In this document: positions 7,600 to 64,000 of the stretch, one piece after another
How the letters are laid out: each line of letters starts with the position of its first letter
Numbering within the stretch: position 1 is the stretch's first letter
Assembly: GCA_034231615.1 (NCBI GenBank)
Contig: CM067299.1
Coordinates: 11,680,469 to 11,744,468 of the forward strand
Length of the DNA stretch: 64,000 bases
Source of the DNA: Meghimatium bilineatum
Lineage: Eukaryota > Mollusca > Gastropoda > Stylommatophora > Philomycidae
Direction of reading: 5' to 3'
The notes under the pieces: generated by a model
The model's database searches: none
Told to the model about the DNA's origin: nothing
The model's input: the letters and a program-made list of their open reading frames with translations, nothing else
Program-made: the position numbers and the translations under genes

Positions 7600-8010
7600 T
7601 AAAATGTTGTCTCGCTCTGCAAAATCACTGCTTACCTTTTTTACCGAACACTGCGAGAAATTAGCTCTCACCATTATTTTACCGGACACGCTGGGAAACG
7701 AGCGCTCACCTTTGTTACCGGACTCGCTAGGAAACGAGCGAGATGGTAAGGTGTGCCCGGTTTTGCTAATACAGGTGGTAATTATGTGGAGAGAGTAGAC
7801 ATTCTCAATGCTCTACGAGAGTCTACTCGATCGGAGACATTTCAGGTCAATGAGCATTACTCAGTATCCAGAATGCGTGAAAAGGGAGTAAGGATCGTCG
7901 TAGCACGGACAAAACACAACTCGAAAATTTCAACAACAAAAAACAACAATGAACTAGCACAGAACAGGAACATTCTGCCCTTACACCCTGATAGATTTAC
8001 TCCAGCTTAG
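7600..8010 (+). mobile_element. LINE RNase H / C-terminal relic with triplicated motif
   Basis: The plus strand contains a degraded form of the RNase H segment that normally reads PGHAGVxGNExADRLA in LINE proteins. Here it appears as LPDTLGNERS and LPDSLGNERDGK, with a third, more degraded copy before them. After this, RVDILNALRESTRSE and a SRMREKGVR segment line up with RVDILNGLWENARKND and TRIRELGLK in the relic at 31.8 kb. The segment between GNER and RVDILNAL is frameshifted. There is no intact reverse transcriptase. RNase H would cut the RNA strand of the RNA-DNA hybrid during retrotransposition; this copy is dead. Confidence 0.7.
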
Positions 8011-13835: not shown

Positions 13836-14585
13836 CTATGCCTCTACGACATACTTGTATAATGTACATCTGCTGCATCATACAAAAAGTGTTTTACTGA
13901 TAAGAACACATTCATTATTCATACACATATAAACAGTTTTGTATAATTATTTAAATATGTCACATATAACATAAATAAATAAATTAACGTATTTGTTTAC
14001 TGCATACACTTTTGTGCAGATTCTCTTGAAAATTGCATCTTTGTCACATATTACAGGTTGACTATGAGAGTGTCATAATAAACTATATGAGGGTTACATA
14101 TAGTTTGGGAACCACTGATCTAGATGGTAGATATATTTGACCTGGATATTAGATCTCTAGATACAAAGCTATACTACACGATTTGTCAAGTCACGATAAC
14201 AGTTACTTGTAAAGAAATACTTCTGAGAGTTCCTTTACAGTATATATATATTATAGGCATGTCGGTAACATTATCCAGAAGAAGTTATGAAAGAGTGTGG
14301 CACATGTTCTCCAAAAATTTTCAGAATCTTCATCATATATGTTCAAAAATGTTCAGAAAAATAAAAAATGTTCAGAATTATCATCATATACATGACTCCT
14401 CACTGCTACTAAGTAAACCTCTCTATTCTCAAGTTAATCAATCCAGCCTCTTACTGTGCCATGCTCAGAAGGTCATCAATATCATGTGTCCAATGCAGAA
14501 TTGGTTTGCCTATTGCTCTCTTTCCTTTAATCTTTCCTTCCGTTATTAACCTTTATACGCCATTTAAAAAAATGTATGTCTTAGT
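13836..14585. other. Unassigned AT-rich DNA
   Basis: A 141-codon plus-strand frame at 14124-14549 lacks recognisable domains and overlaps a small CAGAAT/TTCATCATAT duplication near 14325-14390. I do not support it as a gene. Confidence 0.3.
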
Positions 14586-14589
14586 TTAA

Positions 14590-15250
14590 ATATAAAAAAG
14601 ACAGAAACATGGATAATATCAGGAAATAATACTCCACCATATAGTAACATAGTATTAAATAAGAAAAACTTGAAGCAGGTGAATAGTTTCAAATATTTAG
14701 GAACATTAATAACTTCAGATGGTAAATGCAAGACAGAAATTATAAGCAGAATAGGACAAGCAAAAGCAGTATTCCATAAAATGAAAAATATCCTATGCAA
14801 AATGTCCATATCGATGGATATTAGAAAACGTGTTATCAAATGCTACATTGAACCAATGCTACTCTAAAAAAGTGAAGCATGGACAATAAATAAGACATCA
14901 CAAACATCATTGGAGACAGCAGAAATGTGGTTTAATAAAAGAATGTTACTCATTCCTTGGACAGAAAATATTACTAATGAAAAATGTCTTAGAAGGACGA
15001 ATGTGAAAAGATGCATTATTGATATTATAAGAAAAAAGACAGTCAAATTTTATTGGGCACATAATGAGAAGAGGAGGCATTGAGAATATCGTGACAGCAG
15101 GAAAGATAGAAGGGAAATGATCAAAGGGAAGACTCAGAGTAAAGACATTGAACGGTTTGACTAAATGATTTCGATTAACATCACCAACAGAGATGATGAC
15201 ATATATGAGAGATCGATGTACATGGAGAAATATTATCGCCAATATCTTTA
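14590..15250 (+). mobile_element. LINE reverse-transcriptase C-terminal relic
   Basis: The plus strand reads KTETWIISG, then FKYLGTLITSDGKCKTEI, ISRIGQAKAVFHKMKNILC and RKRVIKCYIEPMLL. In LINE ORF2 proteins the YLGxxI(T/S)xDG block follows the FADD catalytic box and leads into the thumb region. A stop falls at 14865 where other copies read LLYGxExWT. The frame resumes with SEAWTINKTSQTSLETAE and MLLIPWTENITNEKCLRR, then breaks again near 15080-15120. The last blocks end about 50 bases from the 38-bp satellite. Catalytic motifs are absent, so this is a dead 3' fragment. Confidence 0.88.
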
Positions 15251-15296
15251 TTTTTAAAAAATATGTTATCTTTGGTTCATTGATGTATTTTTTTTA

Positions 15297-18200
15297 ATGC
15301 TGAGCCAGTCATCTTCTATATTCAAATCTTTGAGGAGCCGAGCCAGTCATCTTCTATATTCAAATCTTTGAGGAGCCGAGCCAGTCATCTTCTATATTCA
15401 AATCTTTGAGGATCTGAGCCAGTCATCTTCTATATTCAAATCTTTGAGGATCTGAGCCAGTCATCTTCTATATTCAAATCTTTGAGGAGCCGAGCCAGTC
15501 ATCTTCTATATTCAAATCTTTGAGGAGCCGAGCCAGTCATCTTCTATATTCAAATCTTTGAGGAGCCGAGCCAGTCATCTTCTATATTCAAATCTTTGAG
15601 GAGCCGAGCCAGTCATCTTCTATATTCAAATCTTTGAGGAGCCGAGCCAGTCATCTTCTATATTCAAATCTTTGAGGATCTGAGCCAGTCATCTTCTATA
15701 TTCAAATCTTTGAGGATCTGAGCCAGTCATCTTCTATATTCAAATCTTTGAGGAGCCGAGCCAGTCATCTTCTATATTCAAATCTTTGAGGAGCAGAGCC
15801 AGTCATCTTCTATATTCAAATCTTTGAGGAGCCGAGCCAGTCATCTTCTATATTCAAATCTTTGAGGAGCAGAGCCAGTCATCTTCTATATTCAAATCTT
15901 TGAGGATCTGAGCCAGTCATCTTCTATATTCAAATCTTTGAGGATCTGAGCCAGTCATCTTCTATGTTCAAATCTTTGAGGAGCAGAGCCAGTCATCTTC
16001 TATGTTCAAATCTTTGAGGATCTGAGCCAGTCATCTTCTATATTCAAATCTTTGAGGAGCCGAGCCAGTCATCTTCTATATTCAAATCTTTGAGGATCTG
16101 AGCCAGTCATCTTCTATATTCAAATCTTTGAGGATCTGAGCCAGTCATCTTCTATATTCAAATCTTTGAGGATCTGAGCCAGTCATCTTCTATATTCAAA
16201 TCTTTGAGGAGCAGAGCCAGTCATCTTCTATATTCAAATCTTTGAGGAGCCGAGCCAGTCATCTTCTATATTCAAATCTTTGAGGAGCCGAGCCAGTCAT
16301 CTTCTATATTCAAATCTTTGAGGATCTGAGCCAGTCATCTTCTATATTCAAATCTTTGAGGATCTGAGCCAGTCATCTTCTATATTCAAATCTTTGAGGA
16401 TCTGAGCCAGTCATCTTCTATATTCAAATCTTTGAGGAGCCGAGCCAGTCATCTTCTATGTTCAAATCTTTGAGGAGCCGAGCCAGTCATCTTCTATATT
16501 CAAATCTTTGAGGAGCCGAGCCAGTAATCTTCTATATTCAAATCTTTGAGGAGCCGAGCCAGTCATCTTCTATATTCAAATCTTTGAGGATCTGAGCCAG
16601 TCATCTTCTATATTCAAATCTTTGAGGATCTGAGCCAGTCATCTTCTATATTCAAATCTTTGAGGAGCCGAGTCAGTCATCTTCTATATTCAAATCTTTG
16701 AGGAGCCGAGCCAGTCATCTTCTATATTCAAATCTTTGAGGAGCCGAGCCAGTCATCTTCTATATTCAAATCTTTGAGGAGCCGAGCCAGTCATCTTCTA
16801 TATTCAAATCTTTGAGGATCTGAGCCAGTCATCTTCTATATTCAAATCTTTGAGGATCTGAGCCAGTCATCTTCTATGTTCAAATCTTTGAGGAGCAGAG
16901 CCAGTCATCTTCTATGTTCAAATCTTTGAGGATCTGAGCCAGTCATCTTCTATATTCAAATCTTTGAGGAGCCGAGCCAGTCATCTTCTATATTCAAATC
17001 TTTGAGGATCTGAGCCAGTCATCTTCTATATTCAAATCTTTGAGGATCTGAGCCAGTCATCTTCTATATTCAAATCTTTGAGGATCTGAGCCAGTCATCT
17101 TCTATATTCAAATCTTTGAGGAGCAGAGCCAGTCATCTTCTATGTTCAAATCTTTGAGGATCTGAGCCAGTCATCTTCTGTATTCAAATCTTTGAGGATC
17201 TGAGCCAGTCATCTTCTATATTTAAATCTTTGAGGATCTGAGCCAGTCTTCTTCTATATTCAAATCTTTGAGGAGCAGAGCCAGTCATCTTCTATGTTCA
17301 AATCTTTGAGGAGCCGAGCCAGTCATCTTCTATGTTCAAATCTTTGAGGAGCAGAGCCAGTCATCTTCTATATTCAAATCTTTGAGGAGCCGAGCCAGTC
17401 ATCTTCTATATTCAAATCTTTGAGGAGCAGAGCCAGTCATCTTCTATATTCAAATCTTTGAGGAGCCGAGCCAGTCATCTTCTATATTCAAATCTTTGAG
17501 GATCTGAGCCAGTCATCTTCTATATTCAAATCTTTGAGGATCTGAGCCAGTCATCTTCTATATTCAAATCTTTTAGGATCTGAGCCAGTCATCTTCTATA
17601 TTCAAATCTTTGAGGATCTGAGCCAGTCATCTTCTATATTAAAATCTTTGAGGATCTGAGCCAGTCATCTTCTATATTCAAATCTTTGAGGATCTGAGCC
17701 AGTCATCTTCTATATTCAAATCTTTGAGGATCTGAGCCAGTCATCTTCTATATTCAAATCTTTGAGGAGCAGAGCCAGTCATCTTCTATATTCACATCTT
17801 TGAGGATCTGAGCCAGTCATCTTCTATATTCAAATCTTTGAGGAGCCGAGCCAGTCATCTTCTATATTCAAATCTTTGAGGAGCCGAGCCAGTCATCTTC
17901 TATATTCAAATCTTTGAGGAGCCGAGCCAGTCATCTTCTATATTCAAATCTTTGAGGAGCAGAGCCAGTCATCTTCTATATTCAAATCTTTGAGGATCTG
18001 AGCCAGTCATCTTCTATATTCAAATCTTTGAGGATCTGAGCCAGTCATCTTCTATATTCAAATCTTTGAGGATCTGAGCCAGTCATCTTCTATATTCAAA
18101 TCTTTGAGGATCTGAGCCAGTCATCTTCTATATTCACATCTTTGAGGATCTGCGCCAGTCATCTTCTATATTCAAATCTTTGAGGAGCCGAGCCAGTCAT

Positions 18201-21200
18201 CTTCTATATTCAAATCTTTGAGGAGCAGAGCCAGTCATCTTCTATATTCAAATCTTTGAGGAGCCGAGCCAGTCATCTTCTATATTCAAATCTTTGAGGA
18301 GCAGAGCCAGTCATCTTCTATATTCAAATCTTTGAGGATCTGAGCCAGTCATCTTCTATATTCAAATCTTTGAGGATCTGAGCCAGTCATCTTCTATGTT
18401 CAAATCTTTGAGGAGCAGAGCCAGTCATCTTCTATGTTCAAATCTTTGAGGATCTGAGCCAGTCATCTTCTATATTCAAATCTTTGAGGAGCCGAGCCAG
18501 TCATCTTCTATATTCAAATCTTTGAGGATCTGAGCCAGTCATCTTCTATATTCAAATCTTTGAGGATCTGAGCCAGTCATCTTCTATATTCAAATCTTTG
18601 AGGATCTGAGCCAGTCATCTTCTATATTCAAATCTTTGAGGAGCAGAGCCAGTCATCTTCTATATTCAAATCTTTGAGGAGCCGAGCCAGTCATCTTCTA
18701 TATTCAAATCTTTGAGGAGCCGAGCCAGTCATCTTCTATATTCAAATCTTTGAGGATCTGAGCCAGTCATCTTCTATATTCAAATCTTTGAGGATCTGAG
18801 CCAGTCATCTTCTATATTCAAATCTTTGAGGATCTGAGCCAGTCATCTTCTATATTCAAATCTTTGAGGAGCCGAGCCAGTCATCTTCTATGTTCAAATC
18901 TTTGAGGAGCCGAGCCAGTCATCTTCTATATTCAAATCTTTGAGGAGCCGAGCCAGTCATCTTCTATATTCAAATCTTTGAGGAGCCGAGCCAGTCATCT
19001 TCTATATTCAAATCTTTGAGGATCTGAGCCAGTCATCTTCTATATTCAAATCTTTGAGGATCTGAGCCAGTCATCTTCTATATTCAAATCTTTGAGGAGC
19101 CGAGTCAGTCATCTTCTATATTCAAATCTTTGAGGAGCCGAGCCAGTCATCTTCTATATTCAAATCTTTGAGGAGCCGAGCCAGTCATCTTCTATATTCA
19201 AATCTTTGAGGAGCAGAGCCAGTCATCTTCTATATTCAAATCTTTGAGGATCTGAGCCAGTCATCTTCTATATTCAAATCTTTGAGGATCTGAGCCAGTC
19301 ATCTTCTATGTTCATATCTTTGAGGAGCAGAGCCAGTCATCTTCTATGTTCAAATCTTTGAGGATCTGAGCCAGTCATCTTCTATATTCAAATCTTTGAG
19401 GAGCCGAGCCAGTCATCTTCTATATTCAAATCTTTGAGGATCTGAGCCAGTCATCTTCTATATTCAAATCTTTGAGGATCTGAGCCAGTCATCTTCTATA
19501 TTCAAATCTTTGAGGATCTGAGCCAGTCATCTTCTATATTCAAATCTTTGAGGACCAGAGCCAGTCATCTTCTATGTTCAAATCTTTGAGGATCTGAGCC
19601 AGTCATCTTCTGTATTCAAATCTTTGAGGATCTGAGCCAGTCATCTTCTATATTTAAATCTTTGAGGATCTGAGCCAGTCTTCTTCTATATTCAAATCTT
19701 TGAGGAGCAGAGCCAGTCATCTTCTATGTTCAAATCTTTGAGGAGCCGAGCCAGTCATCTTCTATGTTCAAATCTTTGAGGAGCAGAGCCAGTCATCTTC
19801 TATATTCAAATCTTTGAGGAGCCGAGCCAGTCATCTTCTATATTCAAATCTTTGAGGAGCAGAGCCAGTCATCTTCTATATTCAAATCTTTGAGGATCTG
19901 AGCCAGTCATCTTCTATATTCAAATCTTTTAGGATCTGAGCCAGTCATCTTCTATATTCAAATCTTTGAGGATCTGAGCCAGTCATCTTCTATATTTAAA
20001 TCTTTGAGGATCTGAGCCAGTCATCTTCTATATTCAAATCTTTGAGGATCTGAGCCAGTCATCTTCTATATTCAAATCTTTGAGGATCTGAGCCAGTCAT
20101 CTTCTATATTCAAATCTTTGAGGAGCAGAGCCAGTCATCTTCTATATTCACATCTTTGAGGATCTGAGCCAGTCATCTTCTATATTCAAATCTTTGAGGA
20201 GCCGAGCCAGTCATCTTCTATATTCAAATCTTTGAGGAGCCGAGCCAGTCATCTTCTATATTCAAATCTTTGAGGAGCCGAGCCAGTCATCTTCTATATT
20301 CAAATCTTTGAGGAGCAGAGCCAGTCATCTTCTATATTCAAATCTTTGAGGATCTGAGCCAGTCATCTTCTATATTCAAATCTTTGAGGATTTGAGCCAG
20401 TCATCTTCTATATTCAAATCTTTGAGGATCTGAGCCAGTCATCTTCTATATTCAAATCTTTGAGGAGCAGAGCCAGTCATCTTCTATATTCACATCTTTG
20501 AGGATCTGAGCCAGTCATCTTCTATATTCAAATCTTTGAGGAGCCGAGCCAGTCATCTTCTATATTCAAATCTTTGAGGAGCCGAGCCAGTCATCTTCTA
20601 TATTCAAATCTTTGAGGAGCCGAGCCAGTCATCTTCTATATTCAAATCTTTGAGGAGCAGAGCCAGTCATCTTCTATATTCAAATCTTTGAGGATCTGAG
20701 CCAGTCATCTTCTATATTCAAATCTTTGAGGATCTGAGCCAGTCATCTTCTATGTTCAAATCTTTGAGGAGCAGAGCCAGTCATCTTCTATGTTCAAATC
20801 TTTGAGGATCTGAGCCAGTCATCTTCTATATTCAAATCTTTGAGGAGCCGAGCCAGTCATCTTCTATATTCAAATCTTTGAGGATCTGAGCCAGTCATCT
20901 TCTATATTCAAATCTTTGAGGATCTGAGCCAGTCATCTTCTATATTCAAATCTTTGAGGATCTGAGCCAGTCATCTTCTATATTCAAATCTTTGAGGAGC
21001 AGAGCCAGTCATCTTCTATGTTCAAATCTTTCAGGATCTGAGCCAGTCATCTTCTATATTCAAATCTTTGAGGATCTGAGCCAGTCATCTTCTATATTCA
21101 AATCTTTGAGGATCTGAGCCAGTCTTCTTCTATATTCAAATCTTTGAGGAGCAGAGCCAGTCATCTTCTATGTTCAAATCTTTGAGGAGCAGAGCCAGTC

Positions 21201-22952
21201 ATCTTCTATGTTCAAATCTTTGAGGAGCCGAGCCAGTCATCTTCTATGTTCACATCTTTGAGGATCTGAGCCAGTCATCTTCTATATTCAAATCTTTGAG
21301 GAGCCGAGCCAGTCATCTTCTATATTCAAATCTTTGAGGAGCAGAGCCAGTCATCTTCTATATTCAAATCTTTGAGGAGCCGAGCCAGTCATCTTCTATA
21401 TTCAAATCTTTGAGGATCTGAGCCAGTCATCTTCTATATTCAAATCTTTGAGGATCTGAGCCTGTCATCTTCTATATTCAAATCTTTTAGGATCTGAGCC
21501 AGTCATCTTCTATATTCAAATCTTTGAGGATCTGAGCCAGTCATCTTCTATATTCAAATCTTTGAGGATCTGAGCCAGTCATCTTCTATATTCAAATCTT
21601 TGAGGAGCAGAGCCAGTCATCTTCTATATTCAAATCTTTGAGGATCTGAGCCAGTCATCTTCTATGTTCAAATCTTTGAGGATCTGAGCCAGTCATCTTC
21701 TATGTTCAAATCTTTGAGGAGCAGAGCCAGTCATCTTCTATATTCAAATCTTTGAGGATCTGAGCCAGTCATCTTCTATATTCAAATCTTTGAGGAGCCG
21801 AGCCAGTCATCTTCTATATTCAAATCTTTGAGGATCTGAGCCAGTCATCTTCTATATTCAAATCTTTTAGGATCTGAGCCAGTCATCTTCTATATTCAAA
21901 TCTTTGAGGATCTGAGCCAGTCATCTTCTATATTCAAATCTTTGAGGATCTGAGCCAGTCATCTTCTATATTCAAATCTTTGAGGAGCCGAGCCAGTCAT
22001 CTTCTATATTCAAATCTTTGAGGAGCAGAGCCAGTCATCTTCTATATTCAAATCTTTGAGGAGCCGAGCCAGTCATCTTCTATATTCAAATCTTTGAGGA
22101 TCTGAGCCAGTCATCTTCTATATTGAAATCTTTGAGGATCTGAGCCAGTCATCTTCTATATTCAAATCTTTTAGGATCTGAGCCAGTCATCTTCTATATT
22201 CAAATCTTTGAGGATCTGAGCCAGTCATCTTCTATATTCAAATCTTTGAGGATCTGAGCCAGTCATCTTCTATATTCAAATCTTTGAGGAGCAGAGCCAG
22301 TCATCTTCTATGTTCAAATCTTTGAGGATCTGAGCCAGTCATCTTCTATGTTCAAATCTTTGAGGAGCAGAGCCAGTCATCTTCTATATTCAAATCTCTG
22401 AGGATCTGAGCCAGTCATCTTCTATATTCAAATCTTTGAGGAGCCGAGCCAGTCATCTTCTATATTCAAATCTTTGAGGATCTGAGCCAGTCATCTTCTA
22501 TATTCAAATCTTTGAGGAGCCGAGCCAGTCATCTTCTATATTCAAATCTTTGAGGATCTGAGCCAGTCATCTTCTATATTCAAATCTTTGAGGATCTGAG
22601 CCAGTCATCTTCTATATTCAAATCTTTGAGGAGCCGAGCCAGTCATCTTCTATATTCAAATCTTTGAGGATCTGAGCCAGTCATCTTCTATATTCAAATC
22701 TTTGAGGATCTGAGCCAGTCATCTTCTATATTCAAATCTTTTAGGATCTGAGCCAGTCATCTTCTATATTCAAATCTTTGAGGATCTGAGCCAGTCATCT
22801 TCTATATTCAAATCTTTGAGGATCTGAGCCAGTCATCTTCTATATTCAAATCTTTGAGGAGCAGAGCCAGTCATCTTCTATATTCAAATCTTTGAGGAGC
22901 AGAGCCAGTCATCTTCTATATTCAAATCTTTTAGGAGCCGAGCCAGTGTTCT
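15297..22952. repeat. 38-bp satellite array, about 200 units
   Basis: The unit is GAGCCAGTCATCTTCTATAT then TCAAATCTTTGAGGA plus a three-base junction. The junction is GCC, GCA or TCT in almost every unit. Rare markers (AGTCAG, AGTCTT, CTTTTAGG, TTCACATC, TCTATGTT) recur at exact multiples of 38, so length is conserved: markers at 17571 and 22739 are 136 units apart. The array holds large internal duplications with 2432-bp (64-unit), 2356-bp (62-unit) and 1444-bp (38-unit) spacing. All three frames contain stops over multiple units and 38 is not a multiple of 3, so it is not coding. The minus strand of one unit reads LKDLNIEDDWL, matching the LINE relic on its right border. Confidence 0.98.
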
Positions 22953-23115
22953 TTTATGTTCAAGTCTTTGCGGACGCAGCGGTGGTATTTCTCTCTTTCT
23001 GTAGCATTTCATTACAAATGCTATTTTTATTCTCTTCCATTGCGGATGTCATTGCCCACGTCTAAAAATGATATGTTGCAACTGGGAAAATATATCTTCT
23101 TAATAGTTGTAAGTT
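22950..23115 (-). mobile_element. LINE relic bordering the 38-bp satellite
   Basis: On the minus strand, in broken frames, it reads TWAMTSAMEENK, IAFVMKCYRK and VRKDLNIKEHWLGS. The first block corresponds to the YGxExWxLT segment of LINE ORF2 and is closely paralleled at 63.6 kb (ETWAMTSAIENKISIFKMKC). The last block is the likely single-copy ancestor of the satellite unit, since the satellite minus strand reads LKDLNIEDDWLG. The relic merges with the array without a gap. Confidence 0.75.
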
Positions 23116-29605: not shown

Positions 29606-29995
29606 GCGGCGAAGTAAGTGGAAAATTGTACAGAACTTGTTATAATATGATATTAACTCAAACTTCCTTGATTCTTTACATAAGTACTATTGTTATACAG
29701 TTTTACACTTCCATTATTCTTTACAGAAGTATTATTGTTATACAGTTTTACAGCAGTCTGACTTATTGCAGAACTGTATAGCAATTTTGAATTTGTTTAA
29801 GGCCGAAATTGGATGTGCTGAGATGAAATGTACAAATAACGCAGCTATGCTGTAAAAAAGCGCAATGTATTTCACACATTTCAGCTGAAATCACACGAAA
29901 ATTTGTAATAATTATCTGAAATCGAACGCTGAAGAAGAATCTGTATTTACTGTTGCAGGTACGTATGACACATTTCTATGTCTATCTATTTATCT
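29606..29995. other. Short duplication and DR-A tail remnant
   Basis: About 29650-29755 holds an imperfect tandem duplication around ATTGTTATACAGTTTTACA. Near 29924 CGAACGCTGAAGAAGAA matches the DR-A 3' tail on the plus strand. Nothing else was recognised. Confidence 0.5.
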
Positions 29996-29999
29996 ATGT

Positions 30000-30560
30000 G
30001 ATTTGTCCTTCACAGAACGTTGTTCTCACTGCCACTCTGTAAGACTCTCCGTTCTGTGCAAGTTGTTTAGCTTTTCTAATGTCATGTTCAAAAGGTCTTC
30101 AATGCCCTTTGTCCATCGTTGTCTTGGTCTCCCTTTTGTTCTCTTACCTGCAACTTTTCTCTCTATTATTAATCTTTCTAAAATATTGTTTCATTTCATA
30201 TCTCCGAAATATGTTAACTTGTGTTTTTATTGTGTTAGTTTTGAGGAACCAGACATCTAACCAACCAGACATCTAACCAACCAGACATCTAACCAACCAG
30301 ACATCTAACCAACCAGACATCTAACCAACCAGACATCTAACCAGAAGTTCAAATTTTGCGCCGTCAGCGTCAGTTAATCTTTCTATTCATTCATTCTATT
30401 CTTAGGATCTGTATATAATATTATATTTCAAATATCAATGATTTCTTTTTCACTGCGATGTCAGTACCCACGTCTCACAACCATATGTTGTCACTGGAAA
30501 TGTATAGCTTCTTTATTGTTGTAACTTTGTTTTTCTTTTGCCCCTTCACATATATTTTTC
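30000..30560 (-). mobile_element. LINE C-terminal relic split by a 16-bp array
   Basis: On the minus strand 30440-30500 reads PVTTYGCETWVLTSQ, the YGxExWxLT block of LINE ORF2. After a 16-bp tandem array, 30020-30160 reads AGKRTKGRPRQRWTKGIEDL and then a LNNLHRTES segment. These are the RGRPRxRW block and the start of the A.DRxxWR block. The tandem array sits where the intervening LINE sequence is expected, so it either expanded inside the element or replaced part of it. Confidence 0.82.
30243..30342. repeat. 16-bp tandem repeat, about 6 copies
   Basis: CCAACCAGACATCTAA is repeated with almost no variation, inside a LINE relic. The low divergence suggests recent expansion. Confidence 0.97.
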
Positions 30561-30689
30561 AACTGAGATGTTTTTTTTTCTAGAGCTTTGCTTTAGTCAG
30601 CGAAATTGTTAAGAGCTTGTGTGTTACCCAAACTCTACAGACACCTTTCAAGCATACCATTATATTTCACAGGGACGGAAATTGTCAAA

Positions 30690-63054: not shown

Positions 63055-63665
63055 TCTGTCTATCTTGAGCCACTCTTCTTGTTTCTGTTACTGTCATGTT
63101 CAGGTGGTCTTTGATGTCTTGCGTCCATTTTCTTCTTAGTCTGCCTCTTGCTCGTCACCCTAGAATCACCACATCAATTATGCTCTTCTCTAGACTGTCA
63201 CTGCATTTGATATGGCCAACATAGTATAGTTTTCTCGAAAGAACCATGATGTTTAGCCAATTTTCTTAAACATTCATTTCTCGCAGGATGGCTACATTGC
63301 TGATGTTTTTCGTCAAAGGTATTCTGATGATGTTTCTGTAAAAAAAACATTTAAATGCTGCTATTTGGTGACTGTTCAGGATTCACACCCATATACTGCG
63401 AATGGAAATATGAACGCTTTTAGGAATGTTAGTTTTGTTGTTTTGCAGCAGCACAGTCATTTGTTTTTCATTTATTTAATAGTGTTGAGCACTCAGTCTT
63501 CTATGTGCAGACATGTGCGGACGTCTCCACTGGTTCGTCTTTCTATCCATGATATTCTTAGCACATTACTATAACACTTCATTTTGAATATCGATATCTT
63601 ATTTTCTATTGCGGATGTCATTGCCCAAGTCTCAAAATCTCATCATGCCACTGAAAAAGTATAGA
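63055..63665 (-). mobile_element. LINE ORF2 C-terminal relic
   Basis: The minus strand reads ETWAMTSAIENKISIFKMKC, VLRISWIERRTSGDVRTCLH, IED, and, in other frames, IIRIPLTKNISNVAILREMN, KLYYVGHIKC and RARGRLRRKWTQDIKDHLNM with RRVAQDRQTF. Two partly redundant R(I/P)xW/TxxxxxxxxLR blocks are present, which suggests an internal duplication or two nested fragments. The VRTCLHIED block is homologous to the sequence that forms the 38-bp satellite unit at 15-23 kb. Confidence 0.85.
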
Positions 63666-64000
63666 CTTAGTAGTTCTAACTATGTGTATCTGTATATGTT
63701 CCATATGTAAGTATAACTATAACGATAACGATACGATATGCAATTTTGTTTTCAACGAGTTCCTTGTAGTAAACATCATCAATACGTAGATGATGACACG
63801 ATTTGAACATTTCTTCTGCAAGGTTTACCTACAGTAAACATAACACACACAGACAATTACGCGATTTATTTTACTGGGTGCTGCTTCTTTCTTCTGCTTT
63901 CATTAAAAGCACGTCAATTATCTGATATTTTGCAGACAGGTGACAGAGTCTGTTGGCAGCATTTGTTTCTGACAGACAAGGACAATCTTGTTTATCTCCG
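63666..64000. other. Unassigned DNA with a possible DR-A tail
   Basis: CTGCTTCTTTCTTCTGCTTT near 63882 may be the GAA tail of another DR-A copy on the minus strand. The window ends here. Confidence 0.35.

Follow-up and report, generated by a model that had tools for sequence, protein, structure and literature searches.

Minisatellites that arose inside transposable elements (TEs) are already known. According to one survey, 23% of human minisatellites and satellites are TE-derived, AluS and LTR12 contain hotspots, and no more than 6% of the human cases are explained by known mechanisms (PMC3389668). In the flanking-repeat model of Haber and Louis (1998), as described in PMC6947457 and PMC3389668, the first duplication occurs via direct repeats of 5-10 bp that flank the future unit, and the array later grows by slippage, conversion or unequal exchange. 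Coding parts of long interspersed nuclear elements (LINEs) can also be the source of tandem repeats; PROsat (Phodopus), Pvc 20 (Phoca) and chicken HinfI, the latter from CR1, are described as satellites derived from LINE open reading frame 2 (PMC9659126). Here, we describe a 38-bp tandem array from Meghimatium bilineatum that is a clear example of a TE-derived minisatellite. It lies in a 64-kb stretch of DNA (C2:11680469-11744468, hereafter the window) of a 1.61-Gb genome of 32 contigs, inside one copy of a LINE family that we call LINE X, from which its unit is derived.

The array shares with the human TE-derived minisatellites that an internal stretch of the element was amplified in place; flanking direct repeats are discussed there too, and the survey likewise describes regions of AluS and LTR12 that are spanned by more arrays (PMC3389668). 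The human cases that known mechanisms do not explain are reported to have mostly two units, whereas one LINE X array has 202, and compared with that survey LINE X is distinct in that periods recur at the direct-repeat spacing of the element (PMC3389668). Both steps of the Haber-Louis model have a probable counterpart here, and the LINE coding origin of PROsat, Pvc 20 and HinfI is shared (PMC6947457, PMC3389668, PMC9659126). In contrast to the setting of the Haber-Louis model, the unduplicated ancestor of LINE X arrays is present in many genomic copies, allowing predictions of the repeat spacing to be tested. PROsat, Pvc 20 and HinfI are satellite DNAs, i.e. multi-locus, whereas the array in the window occupies one locus and is still flanked by its parent LINE copy. 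Among the titles listed by literature searches, none concerned the LINE X element. The origin of minisatellites is poorly understood, since the ancestral single-copy sequence has generally been lost. The LINE X ancestor survives in more than 1000 places, and arrays in sampled copies comprise about 2, 4, 12, 28 and 29 units, in addition to the window array with its 202. LINE X arrays allow direct tests of how an array starts and grows; what they add is that a single genome reveals the parent copy, the founding junction and births in parallel.

Tandem Repeats Finder (TRF) reports the array at 15300-22974 with a period of 38, 202.0 copies and 96% matches (∼7.7 kb). Cut in register from 22975, it yields 202 whole units, with 32 distinct sequences among them and a mean identity to the majority unit of 96.7%, and a 3-base remainder. 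The units stand head-to-tail, and their length is within the 10-100 bp range of minisatellite units. Their minus strand reads ILKDLNIEDDWL. An earlier note, made from the letters of this DNA alone, had given the same reading and about 200 units of 38 bp, both of which we confirm; the array that it placed at 15297..23115 exists, and its limits are corrected to 15300-22975. The note had further described a satellite of known origin. The LINE origin stands, as detailed below, and the array is a single-locus minisatellite and not a multi-locus satellite family. Genome-wide, a 34-base core of the unit is matched at 204 forward and 6 reverse places (at most 3 mismatches), and 201 of the 204 forward matches lie inside the window, leaving nine genome places outside. 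Because of this concentration in the window, the array has not been spread by transposition. L024 was the sole one among 98 other sampled LINE X copies to come within 3 mismatches of the unit core, and a comparison of the core with viral contigs gave no exact match.

The LINE X family was reached from the right flank of the array. Used as a genome query, this flank (22941-23115, minus strand) gave 1815 first-look candidates, 40 of which, including the window itself, were scored. The majority of the C-terminal end from 38 of the 39 other scored copies forms a 640-bp consensus (positions prefixed with c), which reads QLENVRNFEYLWSTI...CETWAMTSAMEKKISAFEMKCYRKVLRISWTERRTNADVRKDLNIEEDWLLKTIKKRKLTYFGHIKRHNGLERLIMEGKVPGKRTRGRPRLRWTHDIEDLLNM...TFCKGHVT-stop in its third frame. 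At the place of the unit the consensus of the 38 copies has VRKDLNIEEDWLLKTIKK, with ...TERRTNADVRKDLNIEEDWLLKTIKKRKL... as the longer run, so the family does contain the segment. A 35-base LINE X pattern occurs at 632+641 genome places (1273 in total, at most 3 mismatches). A LINE C-terminal peptide matches 37 of the 38 copies, and an RT-like (reverse transcriptase-like) stretch lies just upstream on the same strand in one of the 38 longer copies (L043, E 9e-6). Pfam finds no RT domain in the 198-aa LINE X tail and only a Syntaxin_2 match below cut-off. LINE X is high-copy and dispersed and appears to be a LINE-type family, now dead, and the segment that seeded the array belongs to its C-terminal coding tail and not to the reverse transcriptase itself. 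Of the proposed origin in a LINE reverse-transcriptase gene, the LINE is thus retained and the reverse transcriptase is not.

The array unit is of LINE origin, and the match to the family consensus is decisive. The majority unit aligns without gaps to c315-350 at 30 of 35 positions (score 45), and the outermost unit, next to the LINE, to c314-350 at 33 of 36 (score 57). None of 5000 shuffles reached either score, the maxima being 33 and 31. The doubled unit scores 46 against the consensus, as compared with at most 33 for 3000 doubled random 38-mers drawn from parts of the window that belong neither to the array nor to a known LINE X piece. Among the 61 TRF rows of the window with a period of at least 10, the 38-bp array is the only one to beat shuffles against LINE X. 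The earlier note had named a test against shuffled or random 38-mers and alignments to the border and to a relic at 63.5 kb. The first is passed against the consensus and the border unit fits well; the single relic is a weak partner for the unit (20 of 1000 shuffles reach the score). The border flank without the unit aligns to the same relic with a score of 68, compared with a maximum of 32 in 500 shuffles. The readings of the right border (VRKDLNIKEHWLGS) and of the relic (ETWAMTSAIENKISIFKMKCYSNVLRISWIERRTSGDVRTCLHIED) are reproduced. The LINE blocks said to precede the border, TWAMTSAMEENK and MKCYRK, are found upstream in other frames, indicating that the border LINE X copy is frameshifted. 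In substance, the inference drawn in the note is supported.

The array was born in place, inside one LINE X copy and at the unit's own position in the element, because the same LINE X flanks both of its sides at consecutive coordinates (Table 1). The border is the parent copy of the array and not merely a relative, as had been proposed: on the other side of the array, LINE X continues at the expected coordinates. The left-flank match is the weakest among the flank matches. For the 55 bases left of the array, the best place in the whole 640-bp consensus is c353-397, with 3 of 2000 shuffles reaching the score. A second LINE has been inserted into the LINE X copy next to the array. All 39 other scored matches of this second LINE end at positions 238-251 of the 300-base query (window 15237-15250). 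A target-site duplication for it is not claimed, as the candidates were only A/T-rich near-repeats, the best of 13 bp with 2 mismatches.

Table 1. Features of the window and tandem arrays in sampled LINE X copies (c, position in the LINE X consensus).
Feature	Position in window	Strand	Period and units	Consensus span	Basis and remarks
38-bp tandem array, derived from LINE X	15300..22975	-	38 bp x 202	c314-350	TRF
Outermost unit, adjoins LINE	22938..22975	-			33/36 to consensus; retains upstream repeat GTCCGCAAAG
Right flank, LINE X, continuous with first unit	22940..23115	-		c153-350	blastn of consensus, 77% identity, internal deletion
Left flank, LINE X	15247..15292	-		c353-397	resumes where right flank stops
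Second LINE, 5'-truncated, inserted into LINE X copy	14598..~15246	+			tblastn; beside array
LINE X, downstream of array and inserted LINE	14397..14564	-		c405-570	blastn 75%, E 1e-26
Second LINE X copy	29977..30576	-			blastn of consensus; holds 16-bp x 6.1 array
Third LINE X copy, the 63.5-kb relic	63472..63693	-		c142-368	blastn of consensus; no TRF array inside
L089 array			30 bp x 29.1	c314-342	beats 200/200 shuffles
L045 array			45 bp x 3.9		beats 200/200 shuffles
L024 array			42 bp x 3.7		beats 200/200 shuffles
L026 array			31 bp x 4.2		beats 200/200 shuffles
L023 array			24 bp x 12.5		beats 200/200 shuffles
L128 array			20 bp x 27.8		beats shuffles only just, 30 vs 29

The founding junction is still readable in the window array, the largest seen in this analysis. 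The consensus contains two imperfect direct repeats, GTCCGCAAAG (c314) and CTCCTCAAAA (c347), at a spacing of 33 bp. Two positions within their first five bases, at which the two repeats differ, are telling. The outermost unit has G,G at these sites, as in the upstream repeat. At the second site, all 201 other units carry T, the base of the downstream repeat; at the first, 95 of them carry the downstream base C, 105 A and one G. If the two repeats had undergone slippage or unequal exchange with each other, all units but the first would be expected to carry such a hybrid repeat. The five extra bases at the border are a doubled GGCTC (GGCTCGGCTCC). This doubling is absent from all 74 sampled copies that span the place, which suggests that it is either private to the parent copy or came with the duplication.

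We propose that a LINE X copy with these imperfect repeats, 33 bp apart in the C-terminal tail, was inserted at the locus. Doubling of GGCTC beside the second repeat would have extended the spacing to 38 bp, and slippage or unequal exchange between the repeats may then have duplicated these 38 bp, leaving the upstream repeat in the first unit and the hybrid in later ones. From this tandem pair, continued slippage or unequal exchange would have led to 202 units at this one place, with a block duplication (lag 64 units) at a later stage, and this growth would have proceeded without function or selection. The 38-bp unit is best explained as the 33-bp LINE segment plus 5 bp. The block duplication itself is directly visible. 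When units are numbered from 0 starting at the right, 82-125 and 146-189 agree at 40 of 44 positions (2.4 kb apart), with a score of 37.2 and a maximum of 7.8 in 100 shuffles. Two observations weigh against the proposal. The A at the first telling site, found in 105 of the 201 units, is the base of neither repeat, and the array period is 38 while the consensus repeats are spaced at 33; with the insertion absent from all 74 spanning copies, the 5-bp step is read from the array alone. Overall, we consider this explanation of the array by LINE X, slippage and growth to be highly probable.

Other LINE X copies also contain arrays. The 98 copies sampled comprise 38 chosen by border similarity and 60 of the first 65 places listed for the 35-base pattern, the other five being already among the 38. 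Six of the 98 (Table 1) contain an array with 3 or more units in which the unit, aligned to the LINE, outscores each of 200 shuffles. L089, flanked by LINE sequence on either side, is a second birth from the segment of the window array. The count excludes L012 and L029, with 2.1 units each, and 21-bp x 1.9 rows at c220-260 in L016, L018, L026, L084, L089 and L101, which are taken as a native near-repeat of the element. An 18-bp array in L128 and a 12-bp array in L078 were placed by eye and not counted. L128 holds two separate internal arrays, 18 bp x 3.3 (161-220) and 20 bp x 27.8 (277-831).

These arrays pose the question whether unit length follows the direct-repeat spacing of the element. 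Nine arrays were tested at their breakpoints, which were taken from match ends; the combined p was 0.012 (exact run) and 0.047 (8-bp window) when periods were adjusted (33 for the window array, 23 for L023); an earlier version by eye had given stronger results. This test is only suggestive. Stronger evidence comes from a genome-wide count of places where an exact 13-mer recurs at a distance of 17-47 bp, with the reversed pattern as a control. Loci were grouped by eye, and LINE X identity beyond the 13-mer was checked for part of them, with C1:114572777 in the c413 list showing little. For c413 there were 108+54 matches, and the 100 of 162 listed fall in 19 loci, 13 of which have more than one pair. 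Among the matches listed, a period of 31 occurs at 8 of the 19 loci, 5 of them with more than one pair. This period, first seen in L026, equals the spacing of GAAAGA repeats in the consensus; if 31 periods were equally likely, the binomial probability of eight such loci would be 6e-8.

Two predictions were written beforehand: a period of 23 for c491, where 23-24 was already known from L023, and fewer loci with no shared period for c159, which lacks such a direct repeat. The 31 matches of c491 form 5 loci with periods 23, 23, 24, 37 and 40; 23 at two of five corresponds to a binomial p of 0.01. The 18 matches of c159 also form 5 loci, with main periods of 17, 45, 32, 41 and 31, two C14 places 8.5 kb apart being counted as one locus (one C14 pair is 41). 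Since the locus numbers are equal and the exact c159 13-mer is present in more sampled copies (38 of 98 vs 14 of 98 for c491), the prediction of fewer c159 loci holds per copy only. For c327 there were 277+57 matches; the 100 of 334 listed fall in 8 loci, including the window array, with periods among them of 18, 35-38, 38, 38, 38, 40, 41 and 41. L089, L045 and the 334 c327 pair matches had suggested c314-350 as a special hotspot of births, which we rejected on comparing the 19 loci of c413 (100 of 162 listed) with the 8 of c327 (100 of 334 listed).

Several results weigh against a simple relation between unit length and repeat spacing. With TRF periods, the nine-array test gives p values of 0.15 and 0.65, so its outcome is modest overall, and L128, L012 and L029 have no short repeat at their breakpoints. 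In the census, 6 of the 19 c413 loci (matches listed) show a single pair only, the locus counts of c159 and c491 do not differ, and the c327 periods do not simply correspond to exact-repeat spacings. The reversed controls are partly non-empty (6+9 for c327, 9+0 for c491, 0+3 for c159, 0+0 for c413). The one 13-mer tried from the second LINE gave no tandem pair (reversed control 4+0). We regard it as evenly balanced whether this one dead LINE family has given rise to many independent in-place minisatellite births with unit lengths predictable from its consensus direct repeats; the single-pair c413 loci and the non-empty controls are the reason for not going further.

In an alternative scenario, a LINE that was still active acquired the array, or its first duplication, and retrotransposition carried it further; arrays at several loci would then be inherited and not independent births. 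The arrays on C4 and C5 have a common 38-bp junction, the recurrence of period 31 at 8 c413 loci (matches listed) could be read in this way, and for human LTR12 inherited tandem repeats have been suggested by Ahmed and Liang (PMC3389668). However, the window unit is found at one locus only, none of the 74 spanning copies has its 5-bp insertion, and unit sequences differ among the 31-bp loci. At each of the eight 31-bp loci, we inspected 420 bases of adjacent sequence. Two flanks had no LINE match of note, two had the array segment only and four had LINE sequence, starting at c341, c269 (the start of the stretch examined), c63 and c145. Only L143 was long enough for comparison with L026. The two differ at 24% of sites, as against a mean of 18.5% between other copies, which speaks against an inherited duplication at the 31-bp loci. 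Overall, we regard this scenario as unlikely, although an inherited duplication may still apply to the 31-bp loci. It is far less plausible still that a function, as a peptide repeat or protein-binding site, maintains the amplification of the c314-350 segment. The units are homogeneous (96.7%), but this is the expected outcome of block duplication; with 38 not divisible by three, each unit shifts the reading frame and stops follow, and other LINE X segments also occur in tandem. That an unrelated satellite was inserted or copied into the LINE copy and resembles it by chance is scarcely conceivable: the unit barely exceeds chance against the 63.5-kb relic, but neither shuffles nor random 38-mers reach its consensus score, and its match at c315-350 falls between the flanks, one of which ends at c350 while the other starts again at c353.

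Further observations concern the surroundings of the array and other LINE X copies. In L077, L086 and L113 (3 of the 98 sampled copies), the LINE X match ends at c338-341, a possible breakage point, with different sequence beyond it in L077 and L086, the two inspected. The 16-bp array in the second LINE X copy of the window (30247-30343, TRF) is bounded by c323 and c338 and falls inside the segment from which the 38-bp array grew; its unit does not beat shuffles against LINE X and is not recognisably LINE. Tandem repeats in the window total 19.8 kb in 43 separate stretches (TRF rows merged, microsatellites included). One of them, a 36-bp x 3 array at 7630-7740, has a GHAGNERA-like reading, similar to the RNase H stretch of another LINE. 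It shortly precedes YVERVDILNALREST (region 7630-7830), which matches an RNase H peptide of LINEs, and is possibly a second minisatellite born in LINE coding sequence.

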